NCBI GenBank assembly: GCA_903927005.1
Contig: CAIYLH010000100.1
Location: 1-49,999 of the forward strand
Direction: 5' to 3'
Length of the DNA: 49,999 nt
DNA from: an uncultured Pseudomonadota bacterium
GTDB taxonomy: Bacteria; Pseudomonadota; Gammaproteobacteria; Steroidobacterales; Steroidobacteraceae
The translations under genes and the position numbers were made by a program. Within the stretch, counting starts at the first letter, position 1; the number at the start of each line of letters is the position of its first letter. Shown in pieces: positions 11,640 to 30,637 of this stretch. A model generated the notes under the pieces. It ran no database searches, was not told the DNA's origin, and worked only from the letters and a program-made list of their open reading frames with translations.

Positions 11640-11648
11640 GATGCTCCG

Positions 11649-12320: not shown

Positions 12321-12322
12321 GT

Positions 12323-13630: not shown

Positions 13631-13654
13631 GCCAGTCAATGAGTAGAGGTAATC

Positions 13655-15022
13655 ATGCATGATGGAAAATCAGTCAAGTCCGCTCCTCTGAGCGAATGGC
13701 AGGCGTTTCACGCCGCCAACCCGGACCTGAAGGCAATCGACGCGTTCATCATCGATGTGAACGGCGCGCTCTCGGGCAAGCGCCTCGAGGCTGCTGACGG
13801 GAACAAGTTGTACGAAGATGGCGCGCAGTTCTCCGCCTCGGCGCTGGTCGCCGACTGCCGCGGACTTGGGCATAACGCCGGCGGCCTCGGCAAGGCCGAT
13901 GGCGATCCCGATGGCAATGCGTTCCCGCTGGCCGGCACGTTGTGCCGCTCGCCGTGGGCGTCCACTCCTACAGCCCAGGTGCTGTGTCAGATGCTGGACG
14001 TGCACCACGCCAAGGAACACTGGTTTGATCCACGTGTCATTCTGCGCGACGTCGTCGCACAGTGCCGAGCCGCTGGCCTGAACCCCGTGGTCGCCTGCGA
14101 ACTCGAGTTTTACCTGATTGATCCGCGTCGTGCCGACAATGGCGCGATCTCGGTTGGAACTCCGCCGGGCCGCAGCGCGCCGCGCCGCGCCGGCAACCTC
14201 TCGCTGGAAGCGGTTGAGGACAATGCCGTCTTTCTGACGCGCGTCAACGAGGCGGCCCACCTGCAGGGTTTGCCGGTGTGCGGTTGCGTCGCCGAGTACG
14301 GCGTTGGCCAATACGAAGTGAACCTGCGGCATCTGGACGACCCGCTGCTGGCGGCCGACCAGGCGGTGCTGCTCAAGCGCCTGATCAAGGGCGTGGCGCG
14401 CTCCATGGGCATGGAGGCGACGTTCATGGCCAAGCCGTTCATGCCGCAGCCCGGCAATGGCCTGCACATCCACGTCAGCATCGTCGACGACAAGGGCAAG
14501 AATCGCTTTGGCGCCGAGGGTGGCGAGACGCTGCTGCGCCAGGGCATCGCCGGCATGCAGGCCATGCTGTACGACTCGTTCGCGCTGTTCGCTCCAAACT
14601 TCAACGCGCAGCGTCGCTATCTCGGTCTGTTCGTGCCCACCTCGCGTGACTGGGGGAACAACAACCGTAGTGTCGCGTTCAGGGTGCCTGCGGCCCACGG
14701 TCAGGCGCGGCGCGTCGAGCACCGCGTCGCCGGCGCCGATGCAAGTCCGCATCTGGTGATGGCGGCGATCCTGGCGGGGCTCTTGCACGGTATTAAGCAC
14801 AAGCTCACCGCGACCGAACCGGTGGATGGCCGCGCGAGCGAGGGCGGCGACGCGGAGTTCCCCGGCGATCTGATCGTAGCGCTGGATCGGCTGGAGAGCG
14901 GCAAGCTGCTCTCGCAGTACATCCCGGCGGAGTTCCTGAAGGTCTTCTGTCAGACCAAGCGCGGCGAGTACATGGAGCTGATCGAGGAGATCTTCCCGCA
15001 GGAGTACGACTTCTATGCCTGA
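13655..15022 (+). CDS. puuA: Gamma-glutamylputrescine synthetase-like (glutamine synthetase family)
   Basis: 455 residues. PuuA/SpuI ligates glutamate to an amine of putrescine (or another polyamine) using ATP. Glutamine synthetase fold motifs: VACELEFYLID, VAEYGVGQYEVNL, FMAKPFMPQPGNGLHIHVS, WGNNNRSVAFRVP and RVEHRVAGADASPHLVMA. The N-terminal IDAFIIDVNGALSGKRL segment is the PuuA-like version of the short N-domain and distinguishes it from the ammonia-assimilating GlnA. AGAGGT at 13645-13650 precedes the ATG. It directly follows the PuuB-type oxidase and overlaps the next aminotransferase by eight bases. A second, different ligase of this superfamily is encoded at 27010-28377, so the two probably have different amine substrates. 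Confidence 0.87.
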   Translation: MHDGKSVKSAPLSEWQAFHAANPDLKAIDAFIIDVNGALSGKRLEAADGNKLYEDGAQFSASALVADCRGLGHNAGGLGKADGDPDGNAFPLAGTLCRSPWASTPTAQVLCQMLDVHHAKEHWFDPRVILRDVVAQCRAAGLNPVVACELEFYLIDPRRADNGAISVGTPPGRSAPRRAGNLSLEAVEDNAVFLTRVNEAAHLQGLPVCGCVAEYGVGQYEVNLRHLDDPLLAADQAVLLKRLIKGVARSMGMEATFMAKPFMPQPGNGLHIHVSIVDDKGKNRFGAEGGETLLRQGIAGMQAMLYDSFALFAPNFNAQRRYLGLFVPTSRDWGNNNRSVAFRVPAAHGQARRVEHRVAGADASPHLVMAAILAGLLHGIKHKLTATEPVDGRASEGGDAEFPGDLIVALDRLESGKLLSQYIPAEFLKVFCQTKRGEYMELIEEIFPQEYDFYA

Positions 15023-16379
15023 CACCCTGCGGGGCATCGGCCAGGAACGCCTTGCGGCGTTCGTGGTTGGGGAGGGTGCGCGCTACGTCAGCGCGCACCC
15101 CCGTTCCCGCGCCCTGGCGGCGGCGGGAGCGAGCAGTTACTACGCTGGCGTGCCCATGCACTGGATGCTGGACTGGCCGCTGCCGTTTCCGCTGGTCATC
15201 GGAGATGCCCAGGGTGCGATGCTGACCGATGCCGACGGCGTGACGCTTGCTGACTTCTGTCTGGGCGACACCGGGTCGATGTTTGGGCATTCGCCGCCGG
15301 CGGTGGTGCGTGCGCTTAGGGCGCAGACCGGCCACGGCTTTACCTACATGCTGCCGACCGAGCATGCCTATGCGGTTGGTCACCTGCTGCAGGAGCGCTT
15401 CGGGCTGCCGCACTGGCAGGTTGCGACAACTGCCTCCGACGCTAATCGCTTTGCACTGCGGGTGGCGCGCGCGGTCACTAACCGCCCGAAGGTGCTAGTC
15501 ATGAATGGCTGCTACCACGGGGCGGTAGACGAGTCCTACGTCGAACTGCACGACGGGGTCGCCCGCAACCGTCCGGGGCTGATCGGGCAGTTCACGGACC
15601 TGACCGAGGGTACCCGGATCGTCGAGTTCAACGACGTGGCGGCGCTGCAGCGTGAGCTTGCTCATCGCGACGTGGCCTGCGTGATGACCGAACCGGTGCT
15701 CACCAACTGTTGCATGGTGTCACCGCAGCCGGGCTATCACGCCGCGTTACGGCGGCTGACCCGTGAGACCGGCACGCTGCTGCTGATCGATGAGACCCAT
15801 ACGATTTCCACCGGGCCCGGCGGCTACACCCGTGCCCACGGCCTGGAGCCTGACCTGTTCGTCGTCGGCAAGCCGATCGCGGGGGGGATTCCTGCGAGCG
15901 TGTGGGGCTTCAGTGACGCGGTCGCCGCAAGCTGGGATGAGATTCGCCGCACCAAGGCACCGGGCCACTCCGGGCTGGGAACCACCCTGTCCGCCAACGC
16001 GCTCGCGATGGCGACCATGCGCGCGACCCTTGAGGAGGTCATGACGGAGGAGGCCTACGCGCATATGGAACGGCTGGCGGCGCGCCTTGCGGCCGGCCTC
16101 GAGGCCACGATCGCGCGTCACCGCCTTGCGTGGCATGTCGCACGCGTCGGGGCCCGGGTTGAATTCATTTGTGCGCCTGGACCGCTGTCTAACGGTACTG
16201 AGGCGATCGCCGCGCATGCGCCGGAGCTGGAGCAGGCGATTCATCTGGGACTGCTGAACCGCGGCTGCCTGATTGCGCCGTTCCACAACATGATGCTGGT
16301 GTGTCCGGCGACCACCGTGGCGCAGGTGGATCAGTTGGTGGGGGCGTTCGCCGAGGTGGTGGGTGCGCTCGCCGCTTAG
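15015..16379 (+). CDS. Class III aminotransferase, glutamate-1-semialdehyde aminomutase-like
   Basis: 454 residues, overlapping the PuuA-like gene by eight bases and therefore translationally coupled. It is a PLP-dependent class III enzyme: VLVMNGCYHGAVDESY, LLLIDETHT (Asp259) and the PLP lysine Lys286 in VVGKPIAGGIPASVWGF. The GKPIxGGxP form of the lysine motif is that of glutamate-1-semialdehyde aminomutase (HemL) relatives rather than of SpuC. It is not HemL itself: the phosphate-binding segment reads TASDANRFALRVAR instead of the usual N-S-G-T-E-A, and the operon context is amine catabolism. An about 60-residue N-terminal extension precedes the core. A role on an aminoaldehyde, beta-amino acid or diamine from the same pathway is likely (1,3-diaminopropane from SpdH would be one candidate), but that is inference. 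Confidence 0.82.
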   Translation: MPDTLRGIGQERLAAFVVGEGARYVSAHPRSRALAAAGASSYYAGVPMHWMLDWPLPFPLVIGDAQGAMLTDADGVTLADFCLGDTGSMFGHSPPAVVRALRAQTGHGFTYMLPTEHAYAVGHLLQERFGLPHWQVATTASDANRFALRVARAVTNRPKVLVMNGCYHGAVDESYVELHDGVARNRPGLIGQFTDLTEGTRIVEFNDVAALQRELAHRDVACVMTEPVLTNCCMVSPQPGYHAALRRLTRETGTLLLIDETHTISTGPGGYTRAHGLEPDLFVVGKPIAGGIPASVWGFSDAVAASWDEIRRTKAPGHSGLGTTLSANALAMATMRATLEEVMTEEAYAHMERLAARLAAGLEATIARHRLAWHVARVGARVEFICAPGPLSNGTEAIAAHAPELEQAIHLGLLNRGCLIAPFHNMMLVCPATTVAQVDQLVGAFAEVVGALAA

Positions 16380-18223: not shown

Positions 18224-19078
18224 CTAGCGCGGCTCGCTGCGTCGCATCAGCGACAGCGCAAGCACGGCTGAGGCGACCATCAGGAACAGGCTGACGGCGT
18301 TGAGCACGGGCGTTGCGCCCTCGCGCATACGGCCGTACATCATGATCGTCAGCGGCGAGTCCGCGCCGACCAGCATCAACGTCGTGTTGAAGTTCTCAAA
18401 AGACATCAGGAACGCGATCGCAGCCGAGCCGATCAGCGCTGGCCGCAGGTACGGCAGCGTGATTGTCCACAGCACCGCCGGACGGGACGCGCCGAGGTTG
18501 TAGGCCGCCTCTTCGAGCGTGCGATCGAAACGCTTGAGGCGAGCGCTGATGGTCAGCGTCGCGATCGCCGCGATGTAGGAGAACTGGCCGAGGACGACCA
18601 GTGGCAGCCCCGGCCGCAGGAACTCGAGCTCCAGTCCGAAGCTGTCGTTCAGTACGTCGGCGACGCGGCTGGCGAACGCGAGGATCGAAATGCCGAGGAT
18701 GACGCCAGGAATCACCAACGGCGCGAGCATCATCACTGACAGCGCCTGCTTGCCCCAGAACCGGCCGCGCTCCATCAGAAAAGCATTGGTCGTGCCAATG
18801 ACGACTGACAGTACGGTGACCGCGCAGGCGACCTCAAAGCTCGTCCAGATGCTGCCGAGCAGTTCCTCATCGCCGAACAGCCCGGTGCGAGCTTTTGCCG
18901 CGTTACCGATGAACCAGTCGAGCGTGAAGCCGTGCCACGGTGGTGCGGGATAGGCCGCGTCGTTGAATGCAAACACCCCGACGGTCACCAGCGGCAGGAA
19001 CAGGAAGATGAGGAATGCCACGAGGTAGAGCGCGGTACCTGCGCGCAGCCAGACCGGGCGGGGCAGTGAGGGAATCAT
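18224..19078 (-). CDS. potI: Polyamine ABC transporter inner membrane permease (PotI/PotC type)
   Basis: 284 residues, six predicted transmembrane segments, beginning MIPSLPRPVWLRAGTALYL. The permease-ATPase coupling (EAA) loop is EEAAYNLGASRPAVLWTITLP. The long periplasmic stretch after the first segment (DAAYPAPPWHGFTLDWF) matches PotI/PotC permeases, which form a heterodimer with PotH/PotB. The start codon overlaps the PotH stop as ATGA (19075-19078), so translation is coupled. It is the last gene of the importer and is followed by an imperfect GC hairpin around 18190-18215 without a T-tract. Substrate class (putrescine/spermidine) is from family and operon context. Confidence 0.87.
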   Translation of the reverse strand: MIPSLPRPVWLRAGTALYLVAFLIFLFLPLVTVGVFAFNDAAYPAPPWHGFTLDWFIGNAAKARTGLFGDEELLGSIWTSFEVACAVTVLSVVIGTTNAFLMERGRFWGKQALSVMMLAPLVIPGVILGISILAFASRVADVLNDSFGLELEFLRPGLPLVVLGQFSYIAAIATLTISARLKRFDRTLEEAAYNLGASRPAVLWTITLPYLRPALIGSAAIAFLMSFENFNTTLMLVGADSPLTIMMYGRMREGATPVLNAVSLFLMVASAVLALSLMRRSEPR

Positions 19079-19956
19079 GTGCGACGCATCACGTCGGAGA
19101 ACCGCTGGCCGCTGAGTTTCAGCCCCACCCATACCATCGAGGTCGACAGCGCCAGCAGCAGGAAGCCGAAGGCGGCGCCCTGCTCCCAGTTGAAGCGCGT
19201 GATGAACTGCGTGTAGATCTGCTCGGTGAACCACTGCGAACTGGTGCCGCCGAGGAGCGTGGGCGTCAGGTAGTTGCCGAGGGTGAGCATGAACACCACG
19301 ATGCAGCCGGCGGTGATACCCGGCAGGGCGTGTGGAATCACGATCTGGCGCAGGATCGACAGCCCGTTGCCGCCAAGATCGTAAGCCGCTTCGATCAGTG
19401 AGTTGTCGAGGCTCTCCAGGCTGCTGACCAGCGGGACCACCATGAACAGCAGCGAGGTATAGACCAGGCCGACCAGGATCGTAGCGTCGTGGTACAGCAA
19501 TTCGACCGGCACGGCAGTGATGCCGAGGTGGACGAGGATGCCGGGCAGTACGCCGGACTCTCGCAGCAGGATCATCCAGCCCAGGGTGCGCACCGTCTCG
19601 CTGACCCAGAACGGGATCAGGCAGACGATGAACAGCAACGTGCCGAGGCGTCCGCGGGCGAGTTTCGCGATCGTCCAGGCGATCGGGAAGGCGATCAGCA
19701 GTGTCAGCAAGGTTGAAATGAGCGACATCACCGCCGTACGCACAAAGATGTGCCAATAGAGCGGTTCGCCGAAGAACGTCCGGTATTGGGCGAGGCTGGT
19801 GACGTACTCGCGCGGCGCGGTGCGCTCGCGTAACGACAGCAGCGCAAGGTCGACGTGCGGCAGCACGATCAGCGCGAACAGCCACAGCAGTGCCGGCGCA
19901 AGCAGCAAGCCCACCATCAGGCGGCGCTGCCAGGCGGGGCCTGCGGTGTCATCCAT
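19075..19956 (-). CDS. potH: Polyamine ABC transporter inner membrane permease (PotH/PotB type)
   Basis: 293 residues. An N-terminal membrane segment (LMVGLLLAPALLWLFALIV) is followed by five more and the EAA loop EAAYDLGGNGLSILRQIVIP, which docks on the ATPase. RERTAPREYVTSLAQYRTFF between the first two segments, and LGNYLTPTLLGG near the end, are typical of PotH/PotB proteins. The gene overlaps potG by eight bases upstream and potI by four bases downstream. It forms the translocation pore together with the PotI-type protein. Confidence 0.88.
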   Translation of the reverse strand: MDDTAGPAWQRRLMVGLLLAPALLWLFALIVLPHVDLALLSLRERTAPREYVTSLAQYRTFFGEPLYWHIFVRTAVMSLISTLLTLLIAFPIAWTIAKLARGRLGTLLFIVCLIPFWVSETVRTLGWMILLRESGVLPGILVHLGITAVPVELLYHDATILVGLVYTSLLFMVVPLVSSLESLDNSLIEAAYDLGGNGLSILRQIVIPHALPGITAGCIVVFMLTLGNYLTPTLLGGTSSQWFTEQIYTQFITRFNWEQGAAFGFLLLALSTSMVWVGLKLSGQRFSDVMRRT

Positions 19957-21067
19957 GACTGACCCCGGCGGGGAAGCAGACCGCCCGGTCCGGATCGAAG
20001 CTGAACAGGATCCGCTCGCCTACCTTGAGGTCGGCGTAGCGGCCCGTCTGCGGCAGCGCGATTCGAAATTCGAAGCGCGTCGCGCTCTCGCGCAGCAGCA
20101 CGGCGGAGTTGGCGCCGTCGAACAGCAGGCTTTCGACCTCGCCGGCGTGACTGGGTTGGCCGGCGGGCAGTTCGGCCGCCGTGCGTCCGAGTGTTGCGGC
20201 CTCCGGTCGCACGAAGGCCTCCACGGCGCTACCGACGCTGACCGGAGTCGAGGCGCGGGCATGGATGACCCAGCCGTCCGCCGTCGCCACCTCAACCACA
20301 GAGCCGTTGAGCGCGCGGGCCCTGCCTGTAATGCGATTGTTGGCGCCGACGAATCCCGCCACGAACGGCGTCGCAGGCTCGTAGTAAAGCTGCTGCGGCG
20401 TGCCAAGTTGCTCGAAGCGGCCATGGTTCATGACGCCGACGTGATCCGACAGCACCAGCGCCTCGGACTGATCGTGCGTGATGTAGACGAAGGTCGTGCC
20501 GAACGCGGCCTGCAGCTGCTTGAGCTCGATCTTCATGTGCTCGCGCAGCTTCAGGTCGAGCGCGCCCAGCGGTTCGTCGAGCAGTAGCAGCGTCGGCTCC
20601 AGCACGAGGCTGCGGGCGATCGCCACGCGCTGGCGCTGGCCGCCAGAGAGCTCGTCCACCTTCTTGCGCGCCGCGCCACCGAGGCCGACTCGCTCCAGCA
20701 TCTCGGCGGCCTTTCCGGTTCGCTCGGCGCGGCCAACGCCGCGGCGGGCAAGGCCGAACGCGACGTTCTCACCCACTGACATCATCGGGAACAGGGCCAG
20801 CTGCTGGAACACCATGTTCACCGGACGGCGGTTTGGCGCGACGCCGCGCATGCTGCGGCCGCCGATGAGGATATCGCCCGCATCTGGCTGGATGAAGCCG
20901 GCGATCATCCGCAGCAGTGTCGTCTTGCCGCAGCCGGACGGCCCGAGAATAGAGAAGAAGCTGCCGCGGGCCACGCTGAACGACAACTCGTCGACGGCGA
21001 GGTGATCGCCGAAGCGCTTGACTGCGCTACTGACTTTGAGGTCGGGGGTGGCGGTCGTGGCGTTCAA
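19949..21067 (-). CDS. potG: Polyamine ABC transporter ATPase (PotG/PotA type)
   Basis: 372 residues. All ABC motifs are intact: Walker A GPSGCGKTT, Q-loop FQQ, signature LSGGQRQR, Walker B LLLLDEP with D-loop, and switch histidine in YITHDQSEA. A C-terminal TOBE-type beta domain (about residues 240-372) is present, as in PotA/PotG and other importers of the spermidine/putrescine/iron family. The start overlaps the binding-protein stop by four bases, and its own end overlaps potH by eight. It powers import across the inner membrane. Confidence 0.9.
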   Translation of the reverse strand: MNATTATPDLKVSSAVKRFGDHLAVDELSFSVARGSFFSILGPSGCGKTTLLRMIAGFIQPDAGDILIGGRSMRGVAPNRRPVNMVFQQLALFPMMSVGENVAFGLARRGVGRAERTGKAAEMLERVGLGGAARKKVDELSGGQRQRVAIARSLVLEPTLLLLDEPLGALDLKLREHMKIELKQLQAAFGTTFVYITHDQSEALVLSDHVGVMNHGRFEQLGTPQQLYYEPATPFVAGFVGANNRITGRARALNGSVVEVATADGWVIHARASTPVSVGSAVEAFVRPEAATLGRTAAELPAGQPSHAGEVESLLFDGANSAVLLRESATRFEFRIALPQTGRYADLKVGERILFSFDPDRAVCFPAGVSHG

Positions 21068-22125
21068 TTGGCCGCCTTGATGCGATCCAGTATGCGGCCT
21101 TCTATCTCCTCAAGGCCCGGCGGGATCGCCGGGTACCACTTGATGTTCTTGAAGCCGTCCGGGAAGGACGCGGCGAACTGCGCCCTGAACTTCGGGTCCA
21201 TGAGGACATCGGCGCCTTTGGATGCGCTGAAGTTGCCAACCGATTTTGCGATCTTCGCGGCAATCGCCGGGCGCATCGTGAAGTTTATCCAGGCGTAGGC
21301 GCCAGCCTCGTTCTTGCCGCGTGCCGGTAGCGCGTAGGTGTCGAGCCAGGCGATTGCGCCTGACTTTGGGTTGATGAAGTGGATGTCCGGGTTCTCGGAC
21401 GCCAGCTTCCAGCCGCCCGAATCCCACATCATGGCCGCCACTATCTCGCCCGAGCGGACGCCGTTGAGCAGCTGGTCCTTGTTGTCGTAGAAGAAGCGGA
21501 AGTTCGGCTTGCAGGCGCTCAGCGTACGGCCGACCTCTTCCATCAGCGCGCTATAGGCCTTGACGTTGCCATACAGAGCGAACGGGTCCTTGCCTGATGC
21601 CAGCGCGAACGCCATCAGCGTCGGCCGCTTCAGGCGCACGGCGGTCTTGCCCTTGAGGTCCGCCTTGCACAGGTCCCCGTAGTCGGCGATCTTCGCCTTC
21701 TTGCTGTTGACCACCAGACCTTCTGCGCCCCATACGTACGGCAGGCCGTACAGCTTGCCGTCGATCGAGGCGTTCTTCTTGACCGTTTCGAGCAGGTCCG
21801 GCATGAACTGCTCGGCCTTGACCTTGGACAGGTCGATCGGCCGATAGATGCGGAACTCCTGCTGGGCGCCGACGATGCGGTCCTGGGACGGCTGGGCGAG
21901 GTCGAAGCCGGCACCGCCCGTGGCGCGCAGCTTGGAGATCATCTCCTCGTTGTTCGACAGCGTGACTTCGACCTGGATCCCGGTTTCCTTCTTGAAGTCC
22001 GCGATCACCTCGGCGGGGACGTAGTCGGCCCAGCTGATGATGCGCAGTTTCTTCGCATCGTCAGCCCGCGCGGGTAGCGCGAGGACAAGCAAGACGGTCA
22101 GCAGGAGGGGGAGGGCAAGCTTCAT
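21064..22125 (-). CDS. potF: Periplasmic polyamine-binding protein (PotF/PotD/SpuD-E type)
   Basis: 353 residues. A Sec signal peptide (about 1-21, ending PARA/DD) is followed by the family start KKLRIISWADYVPAEVIADFKKETG, the equivalent of the 'YNW.DY' segment of PotF/PotD. Later blocks such as YGLPYVWGAEGLVVNSKKA, MMWDSGGW and AYAWINFTMRP match the family. AAGGAC lies upstream of the ATG. The APC permease gene ends 59 bases upstream on the same strand, so the importer is probably the distal part of the 28377-to-18224 operon. Whether it prefers putrescine or spermidine cannot be told without comparing pocket residues. Confidence 0.87.
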   Translation of the reverse strand: MKLALPLLLTVLLVLALPARADDAKKLRIISWADYVPAEVIADFKKETGIQVEVTLSNNEEMISKLRATGGAGFDLAQPSQDRIVGAQQEFRIYRPIDLSKVKAEQFMPDLLETVKKNASIDGKLYGLPYVWGAEGLVVNSKKAKIADYGDLCKADLKGKTAVRLKRPTLMAFALASGKDPFALYGNVKAYSALMEEVGRTLSACKPNFRFFYDNKDQLLNGVRSGEIVAAMMWDSGGWKLASENPDIHFINPKSGAIAWLDTYALPARGKNEAGAYAWINFTMRPAIAAKIAKSVGNFSASKGADVLMDPKFRAQFAASFPDGFKNIKWYPAIPPGLEEIEGRILDRIKAAN

Positions 22126-22184: not shown

Positions 22185-23594
22185 TTACCGGGAGACTGAC
22201 TGGCCGTCACTCGGGGCGGCGGCCGGCGTGAGCAGACCCTCGTCGGCGACGATCTTGCCCTGTCGGAAGCGCAGCATCGTGATGGCGGCACCAACGAGGC
22301 CGGTGGCGAGGAAGATCGCTGACAGCAGCGGGTTGTACCAGACGATAGCCACCAGCGACACCAGCGCAATCGCCAGCGCAATCAGCGGGAACAGCGGGTA
22401 AGCGGGGGTGTGGAACGGCCGGTCTAGGCCCGGCTCGCGCCGGCGCAACCGGAACAGGCTCAGCAGGCTCATGATGTACAGGACGATCGCGCCGAGTGCC
22501 GACATCGTCACGATGCTTGCCGTCAGCGGCTGGCCGGCTATCGTCACGACCTGGTCGGAGTAGATCGCCGCGATGCCGATGGCGCCGCCGGCGAGGATCG
22601 CCAGGTGCGGCGTGCGCAGGCGCGGATGTACGCGGGCGAGGACGCGCCACAGGAAGCCCGCGCGGGCAAGCGCGTAGATCTGCCGCGAGTAGCCTATGAT
22701 AATGCCGTGAAACGAAGCGATCAGGCCGAGCAGCCCGATCCAAACCAGCATGTGCAGCCAGCCGCTGCGTGCGCCGACGACGGTCTTCATGGCCTGCGGC
22801 AGCGGGTCGTTGATGTCGGCCAGTTGCCGCCAGTCGCCGACGCCGCCGGCGAATATCATGGTGCCGAAGGCGAGTGCCACCAGCGTCAGTATTCCGCCGA
22901 TGTAGGCGCGTGGGATCGTGCGTCGTGGGTCGCGCGCTTCCTCCGCTGCCATCGCCGCTCCCTCGATGGCGAGGAAGAACCAGATTGCGAACGGGATCGC
23001 CGCAAAGATTCCTGCGACCGACGCCGACGAGAGAGTGTCGGCCCCCGACCAGCCGTGCGTGGCGAAGTTCGTCCAGCTAAAGCCGCCGGCGACGACGCCC
23101 ATGAACACCAGCAGTTCCGCAATCGCAAGGATGGTCACGACCAGCTCGAAGGTCGCCGCGATCGTCACGCCGGCAATGTTCAGTGCCATGAACACGACGT
23201 ACGCCCCTACCGCGGCGCTGCGTGCCGGCAGGCCGGGGAACTGGACGTTGAGATATGCCCCGATGGCGAGCGCGATCGCGGGCGGTGCGAAAACGAACTC
23301 GACCAGCGTCGCGAAACCAGCGAGGTAGCCGCCAACGGGCCCGAAGGCGCGATAGCTGTAGGCAAATGGGCCGCCGGCGTGCGGAATCGAGGCGGTCAGT
23401 TCGGTGTAGCTGAAGATGAACGTCGTGTACATCAAGGCGATGAACGCGGTCGTGACCAGAAAGCCCAGCGTACCGGCCTGCGCCCAGCCGTAGCTCCAGC
23501 CGAAATACTCGCCGGAAATCACCAGGCCGACTGCGATGCCCCACAGGTGCAGTCCGCTGAGCGTGCGCGCGAGTGCCGGCGTGTCCTTAGTCAT
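22185..23594 (-). CDS. APC-superfamily amine/amino acid permease, ethanolamine-permease-like
   Basis: 469 residues with about 12 hydrophobic segments. The N-terminal half (LHLWGIAVGLVISGEYFGWS, then SIPHAGGPFAYSYRAFGP and FAPPAIALAIGAYLN) looks like the ethanolamine permease branch of the APC superfamily more than like PuuP. The GEYFG segment corresponds to the substrate-binding G-x-G region of helix 1. ATG 23594 overlaps the upstream amidotransferase stop by eight bases; a GTG at 23603 would also be possible. It sits in the same operon as a glutamine-synthetase-like ligase, an alcohol dehydrogenase, an aldehyde dehydrogenase and a hydrolase, so it probably imports the amine those enzymes consume. 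Confidence 0.82.
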   Translation of the reverse strand: MTKDTPALARTLSGLHLWGIAVGLVISGEYFGWSYGWAQAGTLGFLVTTAFIALMYTTFIFSYTELTASIPHAGGPFAYSYRAFGPVGGYLAGFATLVEFVFAPPAIALAIGAYLNVQFPGLPARSAAVGAYVVFMALNIAGVTIAATFELVVTILAIAELLVFMGVVAGGFSWTNFATHGWSGADTLSSASVAGIFAAIPFAIWFFLAIEGAAMAAEEARDPRRTIPRAYIGGILTLVALAFGTMIFAGGVGDWRQLADINDPLPQAMKTVVGARSGWLHMLVWIGLLGLIASFHGIIIGYSRQIYALARAGFLWRVLARVHPRLRTPHLAILAGGAIGIAAIYSDQVVTIAGQPLTASIVTMSALGAIVLYIMSLLSLFRLRRREPGLDRPFHTPAYPLFPLIALAIALVSLVAIVWYNPLLSAIFLATGLVGAAITMLRFRQGKIVADEGLLTPAAAPSDGQSVSR

Positions 23595-24444
23595 GACGGC
23601 CACTGCGCGGCAGTACCTCGGCTAAGAGCCAGTTGCGAATTTCCGCCAGCCGCAGTGCAGGGTCCGTCATCGCCGCTCCCAGTCCGTGTTTCCATGCCAA
23701 CGCGGCGTCTGCCGGCGCTTCCTGCAGGCGGCGCAGGTCCGCGGCATATGCCGCCAGCGACGCATCGTCGCTGAACAGGCCTTCTTCTACCAGGCGGGTG
23801 CCATAGCGTTCGGCGGCTGCGGCGATGTCCAGGTAGTCGTACTCGGGGTGGTACTGCACGCCCCAGAAGTTGCCACGTAGATAGCTGAAAGTTGCCGCCT
23901 GCAGGCTGATCTCGTTGCTGGCCAGCACGGTGGTGCCCGTGGGCAGCACGCTCACCTCGTCGAGGTGGATGGTGGGCGCCTCGAATACCGCGGGCTTGCC
24001 GGCGTACATCGGGTGGCTCCTGCCGGCGTCGGTCAGCTGCACCCGGCGCGCGAACCCGAACTCGCGACCGCGCGGGTTGCGCCGCACCGTGCCGCCAGCT
24101 GCGGTGACGGCGACCTGCAGGCCCCAGCAGCTGCCGAAAAACGGCACGCCGGCGGCAAACACCGCACGCGCCACCTCGACCTGTCGCTCAACCGGCTCAC
24201 CGCCGTTATAGATGTTCAGTGCGGAGCCGGTCATCGTCACGCCGTCGTACTGCTCAAGGCTCATGCCGTCGGGCAGCGGCGCCGCACCGTCAGCAGGGCG
24301 GATCACGTCGCAGACGATGCCAGGCAACAGCCCGCCGAGTACGCGAGCGTAGCCGCTGCCGGAGTCGTAGCCCAGCGCCGCCTGCTGGCGGGCGCGGATC
24401 TCGGCGACGTTGCCGTCGATGACCAGCAGGCGCACTGCCGCCAT
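23587..24444 (-). CDS. Class I glutamine amidotransferase-like hydrolase, probable gamma-glutamyl amide hydrolase
   Basis: 285 residues, MAAVRLLVIDGNVAEIR. The nucleophile Cys106 lies in FFGSCWGLQVAV and the histidine-glutamate pair in GVQYHPEYD, the triad of class I (GATase1) domains. The fold is the GuaA/amidotransferase-like form rather than the peptidase C26 form of E. coli PuuD. In this operon the expected job is hydrolysis of a gamma-glutamyl amide to glutamate plus the free amino acid, as PuuD does in the putrescine pathway and IpuF-type enzymes do for other amines. ATG 24444 is four bases after the alcohol dehydrogenase stop. The in-frame upstream start at 24486 would overlap that gene and is rejected. 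Confidence 0.8.
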   Translation of the reverse strand: MAAVRLLVIDGNVAEIRARQQAALGYDSGSGYARVLGGLLPGIVCDVIRPADGAAPLPDGMSLEQYDGVTMTGSALNIYNGGEPVERQVEVARAVFAAGVPFFGSCWGLQVAVTAAGGTVRRNPRGREFGFARRVQLTDAGRSHPMYAGKPAVFEAPTIHLDEVSVLPTGTTVLASNEISLQAATFSYLRGNFWGVQYHPEYDYLDIAAAAERYGTRLVEEGLFSDDASLAAYAADLRRLQEAPADAALAWKHGLGAAMTDPALRLAEIRNWLLAEVLPRSGRHD

Positions 24445-24448
24445 GGAC

Positions 24449-25612
24449 TCAGGCCGCCGCCGGCATCTGACCGAGCACAGCGCCACGGAATATCCGCTCC
24501 AGTGCCGCCGCGTCGACCGGGATGGGGTTGCCGCCAGCCGAAGGATCGATCGCGGCCTCTGCGCCGATCACGTGCGCCTGCTCGATGCTGACGCCGATCT
24601 CTGCGAGCGTGTGCGGAATACCCAGTTCGCGGCGCAACGCCAGCACCCAGGCGAACAGGGCTTCGTAGCCGGGGTTCGGCAGCCCCAGTGCGCGGGAGAT
24701 CAGCGCGCACTTATCCTCGATTGCATGGCGGTTGTACGCCATGACGTACGGCAGTATCACGGCATTGGTCAGGCCGTGATGGGTATCGAACCAGGAGCCG
24801 ACCGGGTGGGCCAGCGCGTGTACGCCGCCTAGCCCCTTCTGGAATGCGGTGGCGCCCATCGAGGCGGCTGCGAGCATCTGCGCGCGTGCCTCTAGGTCCT
24901 TGCCGTTAGCGCAGGCGCGCGGCAGGTAGATTGCGACCAGTCGCATGCCTTCCAGCGCGATGCCGTCTGCGAGCGGATGGAAGCCCGGCGCGCAGAAGGC
25001 TTCGAAGCAATGCACGAAGGCGTCGATGCCGGTTGCCGCGGTCACGGCGCGCGGCAGGCCGACGGTGAGTTCGGGATCCAGGATCACGACCTGCGGCAGC
25101 ATCTTCGGATGGAAGATGATCTTCTTCTGGTGGGTGGTGACGTTGAGGATCACGCCGGCGCGACCGACTTCGGAGCCGGTGCCGGCAGTCGTCGGAATCG
25201 CCACGATCGGTGCGATGCCGGCGGGGTCAGCGCGGGTCCACCAGTCGCCGATGTCTTCGAAGTCCCACAGCGCCCGGCTCTGGCCGGACATGAACGCGAT
25301 GACCTTGCCGGTGTCGAGTGCGGCGCCGCCACCCATCGCAACCACGCCGTCGTGATGGCCGGCGCGGAATACGGCAAGGCCTTCCTCGACATGGCTGCTT
25401 GAGGGATTGCCTTTGACGTTGCCGAATAGTCCGCCGCCGACCAGGCTGCGCGCCGTGGCGATCATCGGGTTGTCCAGCAGTCCCGCGTCGGTGACGATCA
25501 GCGGGTTCTTGATGCCGGTACGCAGGCAGGCCGCCGGCAGTTCTGCCAGCCGACCTGGGCCTGCCCAGATCGTGGTCGGATAGTTCCAGTTGCCCTTGAT
25601 CGCCGTGCTCAT
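24449..25612 (-). CDS. Iron-containing (group III) alcohol dehydrogenase
   Basis: 387 residues. The family's NAD-binding motif GGGAALDTGK and substrate-side loop IPTTAGTGSE are present. The metal ligands are visible as GIDAFVHCFEAF (Asp and His), GVHALAHPVG (His) and FDTHHGLTNA (His). Such enzymes interconvert alcohols and aldehydes with NAD(P). The start overlaps the aldehyde dehydrogenase stop by four bases (ATGA-type), and the amidotransferase follows after four bases. The canonical Puu pathway has no alcohol dehydrogenase, so its position between the aldehyde dehydrogenase and the hydrolase suggests that the gamma-glutamylated intermediate carries a hydroxyl group. Confidence 0.9.
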   Translation of the reverse strand: MSTAIKGNWNYPTTIWAGPGRLAELPAACLRTGIKNPLIVTDAGLLDNPMIATARSLVGGGLFGNVKGNPSSSHVEEGLAVFRAGHHDGVVAMGGGAALDTGKVIAFMSGQSRALWDFEDIGDWWTRADPAGIAPIVAIPTTAGTGSEVGRAGVILNVTTHQKKIIFHPKMLPQVVILDPELTVGLPRAVTAATGIDAFVHCFEAFCAPGFHPLADGIALEGMRLVAIYLPRACANGKDLEARAQMLAAASMGATAFQKGLGGVHALAHPVGSWFDTHHGLTNAVILPYVMAYNRHAIEDKCALISRALGLPNPGYEALFAWVLALRRELGIPHTLAEIGVSIEQAHVIGAEAAIDPSAGGNPIPVDAAALERIFRGAVLGQMPAAA

Positions 25613-27000
25613 GGCTTTATCCTGAAATGAAAGGACTTGGGGCGCGTCAGCTGCTCAAAGCCGACGCTGGAGAGGGTGCAGCCTCGACCCGAATGCTTCA
25701 CGCCCGTCCACGCCAGCGCAGGGTCGAGATAGTCGCAGCGATTGAGGAACACGGTGCCCGTCTCGAGCTCGTCGCCCAGCTGCCCGGCACGCTCCACGTC
25801 GGCTGAGAACAGCGCCGCGGTCAGGCCGAAGTCACTGTCGTTCATCAGCGCGATGGCCTGCTCGTCTGAGTGCACGCGCATGACGCCGACGGCCGGGCCG
25901 AAGGTCTCTTCGCGCATGATTCCCATGGAGTGGTCGACGTCGACCAGTAGCTGCGGCGCAAGGTACGGCGTGCCGTCCTTGTCCGCAGCGAAGCGGCTGG
26001 TGTCGACCAGCTGGCGTGCCCCACGGCGCACGGCGTCGGCAACCTGGCCGCGGACCGAATCGGCCGCTGAGGCGCGCACCACCGGTCCAAGCGTCGTCTC
26101 CGGATCCAGCGGCGAGCCGAGGCGGTAGTCGTGGCTCAGTGCCACGGCCCCTTCCACGAACGCATCGTAAAGGGCGTCGGCGACGTAGATGCGCTTGATG
26201 CCGCAGCAGGACTGGCCGGCGTTGAAGAATGCCCCGTCGACGAGGGTCTCGATCGCATGGGCGAGGTTCGCATCGGCGCGGACGTAGGCCGGGTCCTTGC
26301 CGCCGAGCTCCAGGCCCGCCGTAGCGAAGCCGCGCGCGGTCGCCGCGACGACGGCCCGGCCGCCGGCGACGGAGCCGGTGAAGCAGACGTTAGCGACGCG
26401 CGCGTCGGCCATCAGCCGTGAGGTGTCGGTGTGCGACAGGTGCAGGTACTGGAACACGCCTGCCGGCAGACCTGCGGCCGCGAACGCCTCGGCGAAGCGC
26501 TCCGCGCACAGCGGCGTCTGGTGGGAGTGCTTGAGCACGACCGCATTGCCTGCGATCAGCGCGGGCATCACCGCGTTCACGGCGGTGAGGTAGGGGTAGT
26601 TCCACGGCGCGACCACGGCGACGACGCCGAGCGGGACGCGCTTGATCTGCCGGCTAAAGCCCTCTTTCTCGCCGGGCTGCACGGCCGCCAGTGCCTGCGG
26701 GGCTATCGCCAGCATGTGGCGCGAGCGCTCTTCGAAGCCGCGTACCTCGCCCGGGGCATGGCGCACGGGGCGCCCCATCTGCCAGCTGATCTCGGCTGCG
26801 ATCACGGCGCTCTGGGCGACGAACGCGTCGACAGCGCGGCTCAACAGCGCAATGCGCTCGCTCAGCGGCGTGCGCGCCCAGTGGCGCTGCGACTCGACCG
26901 CGCGCGTCAGCGCCGCATCGATCGCTGCGCCGTCGGCCAGGGGTCGCTCGACGTAGATGCGTCCGTCGACCGGGCTTATGGTCTTTTGAATGTCACTCAT
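25609..27000 (-). CDS. NAD(P)-dependent aldehyde dehydrogenase
   Basis: 463 residues. Aldehyde dehydrogenase motifs: VVAPWNYPYLTAVNAVMPALIAGN, FTGSVAGGRAV (cofactor), LELGGKDPAYV with the general-base glutamate, and FFNAGQSCCGIKR with the catalytic cysteine directly after GQS. It is slightly shorter than the usual ~480-500. It probably oxidises the gamma-glutamyl aminoaldehyde made in this pathway to the acid, the step done by PuuC in E. coli. The gene begins nine bases after the ligase stop and overlaps the alcohol dehydrogenase, so the three are expressed together. It may also serve the PuuB-type product made by the opposite-strand operon, which has no aldehyde dehydrogenase of its own. Confidence 0.88.
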   Translation of the reverse strand: MSDIQKTISPVDGRIYVERPLADGAAIDAALTRAVESQRHWARTPLSERIALLSRAVDAFVAQSAVIAAEISWQMGRPVRHAPGEVRGFEERSRHMLAIAPQALAAVQPGEKEGFSRQIKRVPLGVVAVVAPWNYPYLTAVNAVMPALIAGNAVVLKHSHQTPLCAERFAEAFAAAGLPAGVFQYLHLSHTDTSRLMADARVANVCFTGSVAGGRAVVAATARGFATAGLELGGKDPAYVRADANLAHAIETLVDGAFFNAGQSCCGIKRIYVADALYDAFVEGAVALSHDYRLGSPLDPETTLGPVVRASAADSVRGQVADAVRRGARQLVDTSRFAADKDGTPYLAPQLLVDVDHSMGIMREETFGPAVGVMRVHSDEQAIALMNDSDFGLTAALFSADVERAGQLGDELETGTVFLNRCDYLDPALAWTGVKHSGRGCTLSSVGFEQLTRPKSFHFRIKP

Positions 27001-27009
27001 GTCGTGGCG

Positions 27010-28377
27010 TCAGATGATTTCGAAATAGCGGGCGAGTTCCCAGTCGGTGATCGCCTTTCTGAACTCCCGCTCCTCGTGCTGGCGCGTCACGGCGTGATGC
27101 TCAACGAAGGCGTCGCCAAACAACTCGCGGCCGGCCTTCGAGGCGAGCAGCCGTTCGGCCGCTTCGTGCAGCGTGGATGGCAGCCGGCGCTTCTTGGCGT
27201 GCTCGCGCTCGTAGGCATTGCCGTTGATCGGCGCGTCAGGCTCGATCTTGTGTTCGATGCCCCACAGTCCCGAACCGATCGCGACCGACAGCGCGAGGTA
27301 GGGGTTGATGTCCGCCGCGGCGATGCGGTATTCGACGCGCTGGCTGGACGGGCCGCCCTTGATCACGCGCAGTGCGGTGGTGCGGTTCTCGACGCCCCAG
27401 GTCGCCGAGGTCGGCGCCCAAAAGCCAGGTACCAGGCGCGAGTAGCTGTTCACGGTCGAGGCGACCATCGACAGCAGTTCAGGCATCAGCGCCTGTTGGC
27501 CACCGATGAACCAGCGCATCGCGTCAGACATCTCGTCGGACTGCGACGGGTCGTGAAACACGGTCTTGCCATCGAGCGTCTTCATCGAGACATGCAGGTG
27601 GCCGCTCTGGCCCGGCACGCTGTTCGACCACTTGGCCATGAACGTCGCCATCAGGCCATGCCGCTGCGCCAGCACCTTGGTGAAGGTCTTGAACAGCGCC
27701 GCCCGGTCGGCCGCCTCGAGCGCCTCGCAGTAGACGAGTGCCGCTTCGAGCACGCCCGGACCGGTCTCGGTGTGCAGGCCCTCGATCGGGAAGCGCATTG
27801 ACTGGCTCAGGTCCAGCAGCTCCTGGTAGAGCTCGGCGTGGACGGTGCTGCGCAGCATCGAGTAGCCGAAGGAGCCCGGCGTCATCGGCTTGAGGTCGCG
27901 ATAGCCCTTCTCGCGCACCGAGTCCGGGGTCTCCTCGAACATGAAGAACTCGAATTCCGCGGCGGCACTGACGGCGTAGCCCATGCCGCGGGCACGCTCG
28001 AGCACACGCCGCAGCGTGGCTCGCGGGCAGACGCTTTCGGCATGGCCGGCAAACTCACCCAGGAACAGCGCCGTCTTCGGCTCCCACGGGATCTCCCGCA
28101 GCGTGCCTGGCAGGACGCGCACGGCGGCATCCGGGTAGGCGGTGTGCCAGCCGGTGAACTTCAGGTTATCGATCAGCTGGTCGCTGGAGTCCCAGCCGAG
28201 GATGACGTCGCAGAACCCCAGCCCCTTGTCGAGTGCAGCGAGGAACTTGTCACGGGCGAGGTACTTGCCGCGCATGATGCCGTCGCCGTCGAAGACGCCG
28301 AGCTTCACGTGCTCTATGCCGCGATCCTGAATGAATTGCCGCGCGGTGGCGACATCGTGGGCGGTGTTCGGATCCAT
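27010..28377 (-). CDS. Second glutamine-synthetase-family ligase (gamma-glutamyl amide synthetase)
   Basis: 455 residues, first gene of the long minus-strand operon. Catalytic blocks: SAAAEFEFFMFEE, ETGPGVLEAAL, FMAKWSNSVPGQSGHLHVSM, WGVENRTTALRVI and RVEYRIAAADINPYLAL. The N-terminal KLGVFDGDGIMRGKYL replaces the D-x-N-G segment of the PuuA-like ligase, so this is a distinct subgroup, probably with a different amine. ATG 28377 follows GGGGAAAC; longer in-frame extensions (to 29070) run through the divergent EF-G-like gene and are excluded. A -10-like TATCAT lies about 44 bases upstream. Ligases of this kind attach glutamate to putrescine, ethanolamine or isopropylamine in known pathways. Confidence 0.86.
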   Translation of the reverse strand: MDPNTAHDVATARQFIQDRGIEHVKLGVFDGDGIMRGKYLARDKFLAALDKGLGFCDVILGWDSSDQLIDNLKFTGWHTAYPDAAVRVLPGTLREIPWEPKTALFLGEFAGHAESVCPRATLRRVLERARGMGYAVSAAAEFEFFMFEETPDSVREKGYRDLKPMTPGSFGYSMLRSTVHAELYQELLDLSQSMRFPIEGLHTETGPGVLEAALVYCEALEAADRAALFKTFTKVLAQRHGLMATFMAKWSNSVPGQSGHLHVSMKTLDGKTVFHDPSQSDEMSDAMRWFIGGQQALMPELLSMVASTVNSYSRLVPGFWAPTSATWGVENRTTALRVIKGGPSSQRVEYRIAAADINPYLALSVAIGSGLWGIEHKIEPDAPINGNAYEREHAKKRRLPSTLHEAAERLLASKAGRELFGDAFVEHHAVTRQHEEREFRKAITDWELARYFEII

Positions 28378-28588: not shown

Positions 28589-30637
28589 ATGCCCAACGAA
28601 CTCCCGAATTTGTGCAATGTCGCCCTGGTCGGCCAGGCCGGCAGCGGCAAGACGACCCTGGCCGAGGCCCTGCTGCATGCCGCCGGAGCACTCCGCGTCC
28701 GCGGTAGTGTGCCGCGCGGTACGACGGTTTGTGACTTCGACCCGCTTGAACGGCGCCACCAGCACTCCCTGGATGCCGCCGTCTGCGGCTTCGAGTCGCA
28801 CGGCCGACGCGTGACCCTGATCGATACGCCGGGAACCCCGGATTTCATCGGCCGGGCGATCAGCGTGCTTGCCGCGGTGGAGGCCGTGGCGGTCGTGATC
28901 AACGCCGAGACTGGCCCGGAGCCTGTTGCCGTGCGGCTGATGGAGGAGGCCCGCGAACGCGGTCTGTGCCGCTTCCTGGTGGTCAATCGGATCGATGCCC
29001 CGGACGCAGATCCGGCCGGGATCCTGTCAGTCCTGCGCGAGACCTTTGGTCGTGAGTGCCTGCCGCTCAACCTGCCCGCCGACCACGGCCGGGCAGTCGT
29101 CGACTGTTACTTCCAGTCTGCCGGTCCTGCCACTGACGTGGGCTCTGTCGCCGCTGCCCACGAGGCGATCGTCGACCAGGTCGTCGAGGTCGACGAGGCC
29201 TTGATGACCCGCCATCTGGAACAGAGCGGATCGGTCACGCTCGAGCAGTTGCACGGTGCGTTCGAGCAGGCGCTGCGCGAGGGACATCTGGTGCCGGTCT
29301 GTTTCGTCTCCGCCGAGAGCGGCGTGGGCGTGGCCGAGCTGTTGCGGGTGCTGACGGAGCTTGCGCCGTCACCGGCCGAGGGTAACCCGCCTGCGTTCCT
29401 GCGCGGCGAGGGGACGGCGGCGAAGCCGGTGAAGGTGCTGCCGGATCCGGACCTGCATGTCGTGGCGCACGTGTTCAAGGTCATGATTGACCCGTATGTA
29501 GGCAAGATTGGGGTGCTGCGAGTGCATCAGGGCACTATTCGGCCGGGCCAGCTGCTTTACGTCGGCGATTCCCGCAAGCCCATTCGCGTGCCGCAGCTGT
29601 CGCGCCTGCAGGGCAAGGAGTCGCGACCGTTGCCGGCCGCAGGCCCGGGTGTGATCTGTGCGATAGCCAAGGTCGATGAACTGCACTTCGACGCGGTGCT
29701 GCACGATTCGCATGAGGAGGACCACCTGCATCTGCGCTCGGTGCGCCTGCCGCCTTCGATGCTAGGGGTGGCGATTGAGGCGCAGAAGCGGGGTGACGAG
29801 CAGCGTCTGGCCGACACCCTGCACAAGCTGGTTGAGGAAGATCCCAGCGTGCGCATCGAGCATCCACCTGGTAGTGGCGAGACGGTGCTGTATGGCATGG
29901 GCGAACTGCACCTGCGGCTGCTACTGGAGCGCATGACCGAGCGCTTTGCTGTGCAGGTACGTACCCACCCGCCGCGCATCCCATATCGCGAGACAGTCAC
30001 GCAGGTGGCCGAGGCGACCTATCGTCACAAGAAGCAGACCGGTGGCGCTGGCCAGTTCGGCGAGGTTCGGCTGCGGGTCGAGCCGCTGCCACGGGGGGCG
30101 GGTTTCGAGTTCGTCGACGAGGTCGTGGGCGGTGCGATCCCCGGGCAGTTCATTCCGGCGGTCGAGAAGGGCGTGCGCCTGGCACTGGGCGGTGGCGTCA
30201 TCGCCGGCTTCGAGATCGGGGACGTGCGGGTCACACTGCTTGATGGCAAGCATCATCCGGTGGATTCGAAGGAAATTGCGTTCGTGACGGCAGGTCGGCA
30301 TGCATTTGAGGAGGCGGCGGCGCACGGTGCGCCGGTTGTGCTGGAGCCGGTGGTGCGCGTCGAGGTGTCAGCGCCAGGCGGCTCGATCGGTGATGTGACG
30401 GCGGATCTGGCTGCGCGCCGCGGGCGCGTGACGGGCCAGTCATCGGCGTCCGGCGGCGGCTTGACCGTCAGTGCGCTGGTGCCGCTGGCGGAACTGACCG
30501 ACTACGCGATGCGCCTCAAGGCTCTGACGGCGGGGCAGGGTGTCTATTCGCTGGATCTTAGTCACTACGAGGCCGTGCCGGGCCGTCGTCAGCAGGAACT
30601 CGTTGCGGCGTGGACGCCGCACGCGCACTCGACCTGA
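28589..30637 (+). CDS. Elongation factor G-like GTPase (EF-G2/FusA2 type)
   Basis: 682 residues with the EF-G domain order: GTPase domain, domain II, then the III-V region (TGGAGQFGEVRLRVEP and GVRLALGGGVIAGFEI are domain IV/V-like). P-loop GQAGSGKTT is at 15-23. The switch II motif is DTPGTPDF (79-86): Thr83 replaces the histidine that activates water in EF-G (DTPGHVDF). The guanine-specificity motif is NRID (133-136) instead of NKxD. The RGTTVCDFDPLERR segment replacing the usual switch I is typical of the FusA2-like paralogues, which do not substitute for EF-G. A strong ribosome binding site, CGGAGG, precedes the ATG. It is divergent from the amine operon, with no functional tie visible. 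Its role may be ribosome-associated but distinct from canonical translocation. Confidence 0.88.
   Translation: MPNELPNLCNVALVGQAGSGKTTLAEALLHAAGALRVRGSVPRGTTVCDFDPLERRHQHSLDAAVCGFESHGRRVTLIDTPGTPDFIGRAISVLAAVEAVAVVINAETGPEPVAVRLMEEARERGLCRFLVVNRIDAPDADPAGILSVLRETFGRECLPLNLPADHGRAVVDCYFQSAGPATDVGSVAAAHEAIVDQVVEVDEALMTRHLEQSGSVTLEQLHGAFEQALREGHLVPVCFVSAESGVGVAELLRVLTELAPSPAEGNPPAFLRGEGTAAKPVKVLPDPDLHVVAHVFKVMIDPYVGKIGVLRVHQGTIRPGQLLYVGDSRKPIRVPQLSRLQGKESRPLPAAGPGVICAIAKVDELHFDAVLHDSHEEDHLHLRSVRLPPSMLGVAIEAQKRGDEQRLADTLHKLVEEDPSVRIEHPPGSGETVLYGMGELHLRLLLERMTERFAVQVRTHPPRIPYRETVTQVAEATYRHKKQTGGAGQFGEVRLRVEPLPRGAGFEFVDEVVGGAIPGQFIPAVEKGVRLALGGGVIAGFEIGDVRVTLLDGKHHPVDSKEIAFVTAGRHAFEEAAAHGAPVVLEPVVRVEVSAPGGSIGDVTADLAARRGRVTGQSSASGGGLTVSALVPLAELTDYAMRLKALTAGQGVYSLDLSHYEAVPGRRQQELVAAWTPHAHST

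Follow-up and report, generated by a model that had tools for sequence, protein, structure and literature searches.

An operon with a ligase from a separate clade is predicted to degrade ethanolamine through glutamate-tagged intermediates

Introduction

A pathway that degrades ethanolamine through gamma-glutamylated intermediates, alcohol dehydrogenase included, is already in print for Chromohalobacter, Phaeobacter and Streptomyces. GlnA4 of Streptomyces coelicolor has been reported as a gamma-glutamylethanolamide synthetase, and the accessible part of its description presents the later steps as proposals (PMC6529630). The accessible text on Chromohalobacter salexigens gives its gene set as PF00120, PF00465, PF00171 and PF05013 (PMC9397018), and that on Phaeobacter describes proteins raised on phosphorylethanolamine and, in Phaeobacter sp. 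MED193, an ethanolamine operon with the gene order of a Ruegeria operon (L118) that serves below as a reference (PMC10132767). Here we compare with these systems a five-gene operon from an uncultured Pseudomonadota bacterium of the Steroidobacteraceae, located in a stretch of 49,999 nucleotides (contig CAIYLH010000100.1 of assembly GCA_903927005.1; hereafter the window), for which we propose the same chemistry with a ligase from a different clade.

In many habitats, ethanolamine derived from membrane lipids serves as a source of nitrogen, and a survey of the gamma-glutamylation route searched, according to the accessible part of its text, for the transporter EtoX (PMC10132767). If the ligases described here do the same job, a survey based on EtoX misses many carriers, as ligases of this clade occurred in 21 of 368 sampled genomes of the class and EtoX lay beside 9 of the 80 closest.

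Results

A compact operon with conserved partners

The operon consists of five intact genes on the minus strand, given here from the ligase onward:

27010-28377, minus strand: glutamine synthetase (GS)-like gamma-glutamyl-amine ligase of the clade termed W below, putative gamma-glutamylethanolamide synthetase (PF00120, 320.9 bits; tree position)
25609-27000, minus strand: aldehyde dehydrogenase (ALDH), putative gamma-glutamyl-aminoacetaldehyde dehydrogenase (PF00171)
24449-25612, minus strand: iron-type alcohol dehydrogenase (Fe-ADH), putative gamma-glutamylethanolamide dehydrogenase (PF00465 and PF25137, ADH_Fe_C)
23587-24486 (longest open reading frame), minus strand: class-I glutamine amidotransferase (GATase)-type hydrolase, putative gamma-glutamylglycine hydrolase (PF00117, 58.4 bits)
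22185-23603, minus strand: ethanolamine permease of the APC family, Eat type (TIGR00908, 586.8 bits against a cut-off of 381.75)

A preliminary description of this DNA had reported these five genes, their order, strand and operon packing, and all of them hold. The spacing is operon-like, with a gap of 9 nt between ligase and ALDH, an overlap of 4 nt between ALDH and Fe-ADH, and an overlap between GATase and permease. The longest GATase reading frame begins at a GTG located within the Fe-ADH gene; the ATG at 24444, right past the Fe-ADH end, is the likelier true start. By alignment, the ligase has the GS metal and substrate residues (E141, E143, E204, E211, H260, R332, E349 and R351), the ALDH its catalytic E231 and C265 (retained in 34 of 34 rows), and the Fe-ADH its metal ligands D197, H201, H265 and H279 (retained in 31 of 31 operon rows), while C120, H213 and E215 of the GATase were recognized by motif only.

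The ligase was present in all 12 genus relatives searched, at 76-91% identity, and is split across two contigs in one of them (G005). Where the contig reaches far enough, the Fe-ADH follows in 11/11 relatives, the GATase in 10/10 and the permease in 8/10; the G003 contig stops once the ALDH is complete, the G012 contig breaks off within the Fe-ADH gene, and G001 and G002 lack the permease at this place. The gene set is not a chance cluster.

We also read, by tblastn, the neighborhoods of 80 wider loci, which are the best 80 of 572 confirmed relatives and hence no random sample (at least two of them, L023 and L025, are taken to be the same contigs as in G005 and G006). Of the 76 loci in which at least 600 bases follow the ligase, 62 have a downstream ALDH on the same strand. 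Where at least 3.2 kb are available, an Fe-ADH is found in 50/62 loci, and the full ligase-ALDH-Fe-ADH order and strand in 47/62. Cultured bacteria with this type of operon include Microbulbifer elongatus, Thalassospira and Hansschlegelia beijingensis. The 46 loci with full flanks contain an Fe-ADH in 37 cases, a recognized hydrolase in 22 and one of three transporter types in 25, and a PuuB-type oxidase in none; this oxidase was likewise found in none of the 80 neighborhoods, and it is not among the five genes in the window. By BLAST, the hydrolase is of the GATase/PuuD type in 24 of the 80 loci and of the formylglutamate-amidohydrolase type in 10, with one locus having both. Pfam searches of 20 neighboring open reading frames, from loci missing a hydrolase or Fe-ADH, revealed a GATase in L018, L068 and L090, the rest being mostly unrelated.

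Evenly drawn samples, from which the window's own genome was left out, gave a similar association. Among 368 Gammaproteobacteria genomes (thresholds of E <= 1e-130 for the W ligase and E <= 1e-100 for the Fe-ADH), 21 carried the ligase, 33 the Fe-ADH and 17 both (Fisher p 7e-17), with 12 of the 17 pairs lying within 3 kb. Among 298 genomes of the phylum, 5 had the W ligase and 36 the Fe-ADH, and all five ligase carriers also had the Fe-ADH (p 2e-5). Within 15-18 kb around the Fe-ADH in those 36 genomes, a ligase of a second type, termed R below, occurred in 29 genomes and a W ligase in 4; the remaining 3 had neither, although in G028, one of these, a W ligase lies at a distance of 28 kb. The Fe-ADH is conserved with the ligase (11/11, 50/62 and 17/21); a lack of such conservation, which would have spoken against the preliminary description, was not observed.

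Some W loci are built differently. Six of them (L035, L069, L071, L072, L099 and L101) have a short-chain dehydrogenase within 8 kb of the ligase and no Fe-ADH that we could find, and the first oxidation step may have been exchanged there too. Three others (L061, L065 and L079) showed no searched pathway partner within 8 kb, the flanks of L065 and L079 being partly cut. Two ligases that are sisters of W (L020 and L130) lie with a class-III aminotransferase, a P1-family peptidase, a Pot-type transporter and a dimethylformamidase-like gene, without Fe-ADH.

The ligase belongs to a clade of its own

In 93 loci (60 of type W and 33 of type R), both ALDH and Fe-ADH were uncut and exceeded 48% identity. 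Thinning at 68% Fe-ADH identity left 30 of these (25 of type W and 5 of type R), which entered the trees together with the window; L094 was omitted for its long branch, and quick trees matched the careful ones in outline. In the careful ligase tree of 42 rows, the 26 W rows form one clade (support 100/100). Nine R rows form a separate clade (100/100), consisting of five operon ligases, PDB 5dm3 (which we take to be Csal_0679), PDB 11zs and two actinobacterial ligases. IpuC, the ligase named for isopropylamine, is the sister of W at 93/88, and a grouping of W with R to the exclusion of IpuC was not rejected (p 0.281), such that W is probably, rather than firmly, sister to IpuC. The window ligase shares 40% identity with IpuC and 31% with the Ruegeria ligase.

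The residue that binds ammonium in GS, Glu327 in the usual numbering, is replaced by Trp in 26/26 W rows (W320 in the window ligase) and by Phe in 9/9 R rows; it is Trp in both IpuC and the methylamine ligase, and Tyr in E. coli PuuA. Replacement of this Glu fits an amine rather than ammonium as the substrate, and does not by itself name the amine. A true glutamine synthetase can be set aside on this ground and because contig C129 of the same genome has a far better GlnA match. The ligase is likewise no PuuA-type enzyme, as PuuA of E. coli and the PuuA-like ligase encoded nearby in the window both fall outside W, R and IpuC, and its score against NF045547 is 195.3 bits against a cut-off of 650; it lies under the cut-off of all four NCBIfam GS-family models that it matched. 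A tight grouping with PuuA, which would have spoken against the amino-alcohol reading of the preliminary description, was thus not found.

GlnA4 had been named there as another ligase for comparison. In the tree, GlnA4 (SCO1613) is represented by stand-ins from Nonomuraea (L127) and Arthrobacter (L128), considered GlnA4-like since the neighbors of their ligase genes encode a short-chain dehydrogenase, an ALDH and a PuuD-like hydrolase. Both stand-ins fall in R, away from W, and the window ligase does not group with them.

In the literature covered, which leaves out most subscription journals, we recognized no description of a W-type ethanolamine ligase or of a ligase replacement in this operon. 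The part that appears new is the ligase clade beside its conserved partners, apparently an unstudied branch.

Shared oxidation enzymes beside two ligase types

The window ALDH and Fe-ADH are each 55% identical to their homologs in L118 (gene order RpiR, hydrolase, TRAP transporter genes, ligase, ALDH, Fe-ADH), as against 31% for the ligases; the ALDH is only 31% identical to E. coli PuuC. The ALDHs of both operon types form one group apart from three E. coli ALDHs, and their Fe-ADHs one group apart from three E. coli Fe-ADHs (100/100). In distant W operons (L017, L018 and L068), the ligase shares 58-62% identity with that of the window, the ALDH 54-60% and the Fe-ADH 49-54%, implying that the ligase normally evolves at a rate no higher than that of its partners. 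An identity of 31% for the W and R ligases is hence best explained by replacement of one ligase by the other, and we infer from this divergence, not from topology, that such a replacement probably occurred at least once.

Tree tests do not settle the direction or number of replacements. In the Fe-ADH tree, the R rows form one group (92/92) drawn inside W, and W as one clade was not rejected (p 0.208). The ALDH tree shows R and W interleaved, and monophyly of W was rejected there (p-AU 0.00015); this rejection depends on the W loci L032 and L070, in which the ALDH, unlike the Fe-ADH, groups with R. When the two loci were left out, neither the ALDH (p 0.149) nor both proteins combined (p 0.322) rejected W monophyly. 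We have therefore withdrawn a reading of two or more ligase exchanges from the ALDH tree, since an exchange of the ALDH in L032 and L070 fits equally well. Their ALDH placement indicates that genes moved between the two operon types, the gene that moved in these two loci being either the ALDH or the ligase.

One R-type ligase-ALDH-Fe-ADH operon, on a plasmid of Paracoccus pantotrophus (L123), lies right before bhcBCD of the beta-hydroxyaspartate cycle, a position that would fit use of a C2 product.

Ethanolamine is the likely substrate

We read the operon as degrading ethanolamine to glycine by way of a glutamate tag, with a ligase from a separate clade, and give this reading a probability of roughly 0.8. 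It draws on the family of the permease, on EtoX beside W ligases, and on the lack of EutB and EutC matches together with the presence of a glycine decarboxylase.

The permease exceeds the ethanolamine equivalog cut-off of TIGR00908. EtoX, the ethanolamine-binding protein of a TRAP transporter, is encoded within 2.3 kb of the W ligase in 9 of the 80 loci, eight of which also have the Fe-ADH, and these copies are 67-75% identical to EtoX of L118. That of locus L054 matches PDB 4uab at E 1e-168, and the Glu of a T-E-x-Y-T-V stretch, which we take from the numbering to be Glu220, is retained in 9/9 W-locus copies. According to the accessible part of the structural report, 4UAB is Csal_0678 bound to ethanolamine, with the ligand held by Glu220 (PMC12410723), and the accessible text on Phaeobacter EtoX gives a dissociation constant for ethanolamine of 7.9 µM (PMC10132767).

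Neither EutB nor EutC had a match in the genome at E 0.001 (the assembly is 97.4% complete, and of 14 control genomes E. coli alone was positive), so the Eut ammonia-lyase route can be rejected here, in line with the preliminary description. A glycine decarboxylase (glycine cleavage P-protein) is encoded elsewhere in the genome. That description had offered ethanolamine or 3-aminopropanol as the substrate; the permease family and the EtoX of sister operons favor the former, and 3-aminopropanol is favored less. Its general scheme of ligation, two oxidations and hydrolysis, acting on an amino alcohol and not a diamine, is supported, with a PuuB-type oxidase in 0/80 loci.

What the sequences show is the gene content, the catalytic residues, the conservation, the tree positions and the association with ethanolamine transporters; the following reaction steps, the substrate and the ligase replacement are inferred. 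The Eat-type permease would import ethanolamine, which the ligase, using ATP, would join to glutamate to give gamma-glutamylethanolamide. The Fe-ADH would oxidize its free hydroxyl to gamma-glutamyl-aminoacetaldehyde, the glutamyl tag presumably preventing self-reaction of the amino-aldehyde, and the ALDH would carry this on to gamma-glutamylglycine. The class-I GATase would then hydrolyze gamma-glutamylglycine to glycine and glutamate, so that glutamate is recycled, and the glycine cleavage P-protein could use the glycine.

Several observations weigh against this reading. We found no member of clade W with a characterized activity; the window ligase sits nearer to IpuC and shares only 31% identity with the Ruegeria ligase; and EtoX was seen in relatives, not in the window. 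Twelve of the 62 W loci with enough downstream sequence lack the Fe-ADH, and a hydrolase was recognized in just 22 of the 46 full-flank loci. In the class sample, 4 of the 21 genomes with a W ligase have no Fe-ADH above threshold, although G356 has one of 52% identity beside the ligase, the contig of G574 stops after the ALDH, and the ligases of G494 and G608 are only 47-49% identical. In 5 of the 17 genomes with both genes, these were placed on different contigs; in G319, a further fragment of an Fe-ADH adjoins the ligase where the contig ends, the G468 contig ends as well, and in G466, G572 and G538 we saw neither of the two dehydrogenases next to the ligase.

Alternative substrates

The same four steps might serve another short amino alcohol (3-aminopropanol, alaninol or serinol), or a range of them, which we consider unlikely. 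The W ligase is nearer to IpuC than to the R-type ligases, both the Fe-ADH and the ALDH fall short of the cut-offs of the NCBIfam models listed for them (the best 25 of 43 in the case of the ALDH), and W-like and R-type ligases occur in two homologous clusters where serinol would be expected. This has to be set against a permease that exceeds the ethanolamine cut-off and the EtoX beside W ligases in 9/80 loci.

The two clusters just mentioned lie on symbiotic plasmids and comprise five homologous genes, with identities of 44% for the aminotransferase, 70% for the pyridoxal phosphate (PLP) transferase, 63% for the desaturase, 48% for the gamma-glutamyl hydrolase and 39% for LysE; one (L122) has an R ligase, and the other (L129) a W-like ligase and an ALDH. 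They resemble the putative rhizobitoxine operon of B. phymatum, as given in the accessible part of its description (PMC5789663), and we call them rhizobitoxine-like by this resemblance only. Rhizobitoxine is made via the amino alcohol serinol, according to the accessible text of an earlier report (PMC3222319), and the L122 and L129 ligases may act on serinol. The pair suggests 2-amino alcohols as substrates of both ligase clades and leaves a wider substrate range in consideration.

Alternatively, the ligase could be a PuuA-like gamma-glutamyl-polyamine ligase fed by a Pot transporter encoded downstream. The genes in question are:

21064-22125, minus strand: Pot-type solute-binding protein, downstream of the operon and co-directional, probably serving polyamines (PF13416; PotD/PotF models matched under cut-off)
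19949-21067, 19075-19956 and 18224-19078, minus strand: Pot-type ABC ATPase and two permeases (PF00005, PF00528)
10242-16379, plus strand: neighboring polyamine set of aminotransferase, GntR, PuuB-like oxidase, PuuA-like ligase and aminotransferase (PRK07046), by family matches

The co-directional Pot-type transporter, which also follows the operon in 7 of the 12 genus relatives (the contigs of two of the remaining five end first), and the nearby PuuA/PuuB set lend some color to this idea. We nevertheless regard it as very improbable, given that the ligase lies outside the PuuA clade, that no PuuB-type oxidase was found in any of the 80 W loci, and that the neighboring PuuA/PuuB set already fills that role. 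To our knowledge, moreover, an alcohol dehydrogenase has no place in the established chemistry of putrescine oxidation.

An isopropylamine (Ipu) type of route, in which the glutamylated amine is hydroxylated and then oxidized, can practically be dismissed even though IpuC, at 40% identity and as the sister of W (93/88), is the closest relative whose name denotes a specific function, because that kinship is not firm (p 0.281 for W and R without IpuC) and the P450, ferredoxin, reductase and short-chain dehydrogenase present in L022 and L124 are all missing from the five-gene operon.

Other genes around the operon

The plus-strand polyamine set includes two class-III aminotransferases and a GntR regulator, and its ligase and oxidase are 38% identical to E. 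coli PuuA (13655-15022) and 37% to PuuB (12317-13630), respectively, bearing out the earlier view that a separate PuuAB-type set lies beside the operon. A division of labor between the two adjacent ligases, one for diamines and the other for amino alcohols, is plausible.

On the other side, about 210 bases from the ligase, a divergent gene (28589-30637) resembles, by eye, an elongation-factor-G-type GTPase, and a similar gene adjoins the ligase in at least L103, L104 and L112. A promoter scan returned 0 sites against 1.1 expected and a terminator scan 9 against 5.5 expected, and a search for inverted repeats upstream of the ligase gave nothing remarkable. The genome holds five GS-family matches in all, among them two further GS-like ligases on contigs C47 (L116) and C69 (L117); one of this pair adjoins a Pot-type transporter, and one groups with glutamate-methylamine ligase (100/100).

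Discussion

The operon is a real variant of a published route, and its chemistry is well supported. If ethanolamine is indeed its substrate, the oxidation steps are kept while enzymes from two unrelated clades serve the step that chooses the substrate. A broader proposal is that W constitutes a second, uncharacterized family of gamma-glutamylethanolamide synthetases, nearer to the isopropylamine ligase than to ligases of the published type, and that, with ALDH and Fe-ADH staying the same, members of one family have repeatedly taken the place of the other, also within a rhizobitoxine-like cluster. We advance it tentatively, at somewhat under even odds; if true, the pathway would combine an invariant pair of oxidation enzymes with a ligase, a hydrolase and a transporter that can each be exchanged.

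Comparison with known systems

The closest counterpart is the EtoX operon of Chromohalobacter salexigens and Phaeobacter MED193, with which the window operon shares the ligase-ALDH-Fe-ADH order, a dedicated ethanolamine transporter, the lack of an ammonia-lyase, and the ALDH and Fe-ADH families (55% identity to the Ruegeria operon of that layout). It differs in its ligase, which belongs to another clade (31% identity; two separate 100/100 clades), in having a class-I GATase rather than a hydrolase of the formylglutamate-amidohydrolase type (PF05013), and in having an Eat-type permease rather than a TRAP transporter. The preliminary description had stressed that an alcohol dehydrogenase stands where the amine oxidase would be expected; the enzyme is present and PuuB absent, but this is the layout found in the accessible parts of the Chromohalobacter and Phaeobacter reports (PMC9397018, PMC10132767) and is not new.

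The GlnA4 cluster of Streptomyces coelicolor resembles the operon in its proposed chemistry and in having an ALDH, a glutamine amidotransferase and, in several species, a permease. Its published figure legend names a short-chain dehydrogenase; in the accessible part of a 2022 review, this gene appears together with an iron-dependent dehydrogenase. Its ligase probably falls in clade R, judging by the two actinobacterial stand-ins, and not in W.

With the Ipu route, the operon has in common glutamylated intermediates and what is probably the nearest specifically named ligase, IpuC, but it has no monooxygenase system and different dehydrogenases, and W is separate from IpuC. The Puu route (PuuABCD) offers the same roles of ligase, aldehyde dehydrogenase and amidotransferase; in the window, by contrast, the ligase is not of the PuuA clade, an Fe-ADH stands instead of PuuB, and the ALDH is 31% identical to PuuC. 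The Eut route, finally, is likely to share the substrate, and its EutB and EutC have no match in the genome of the window.

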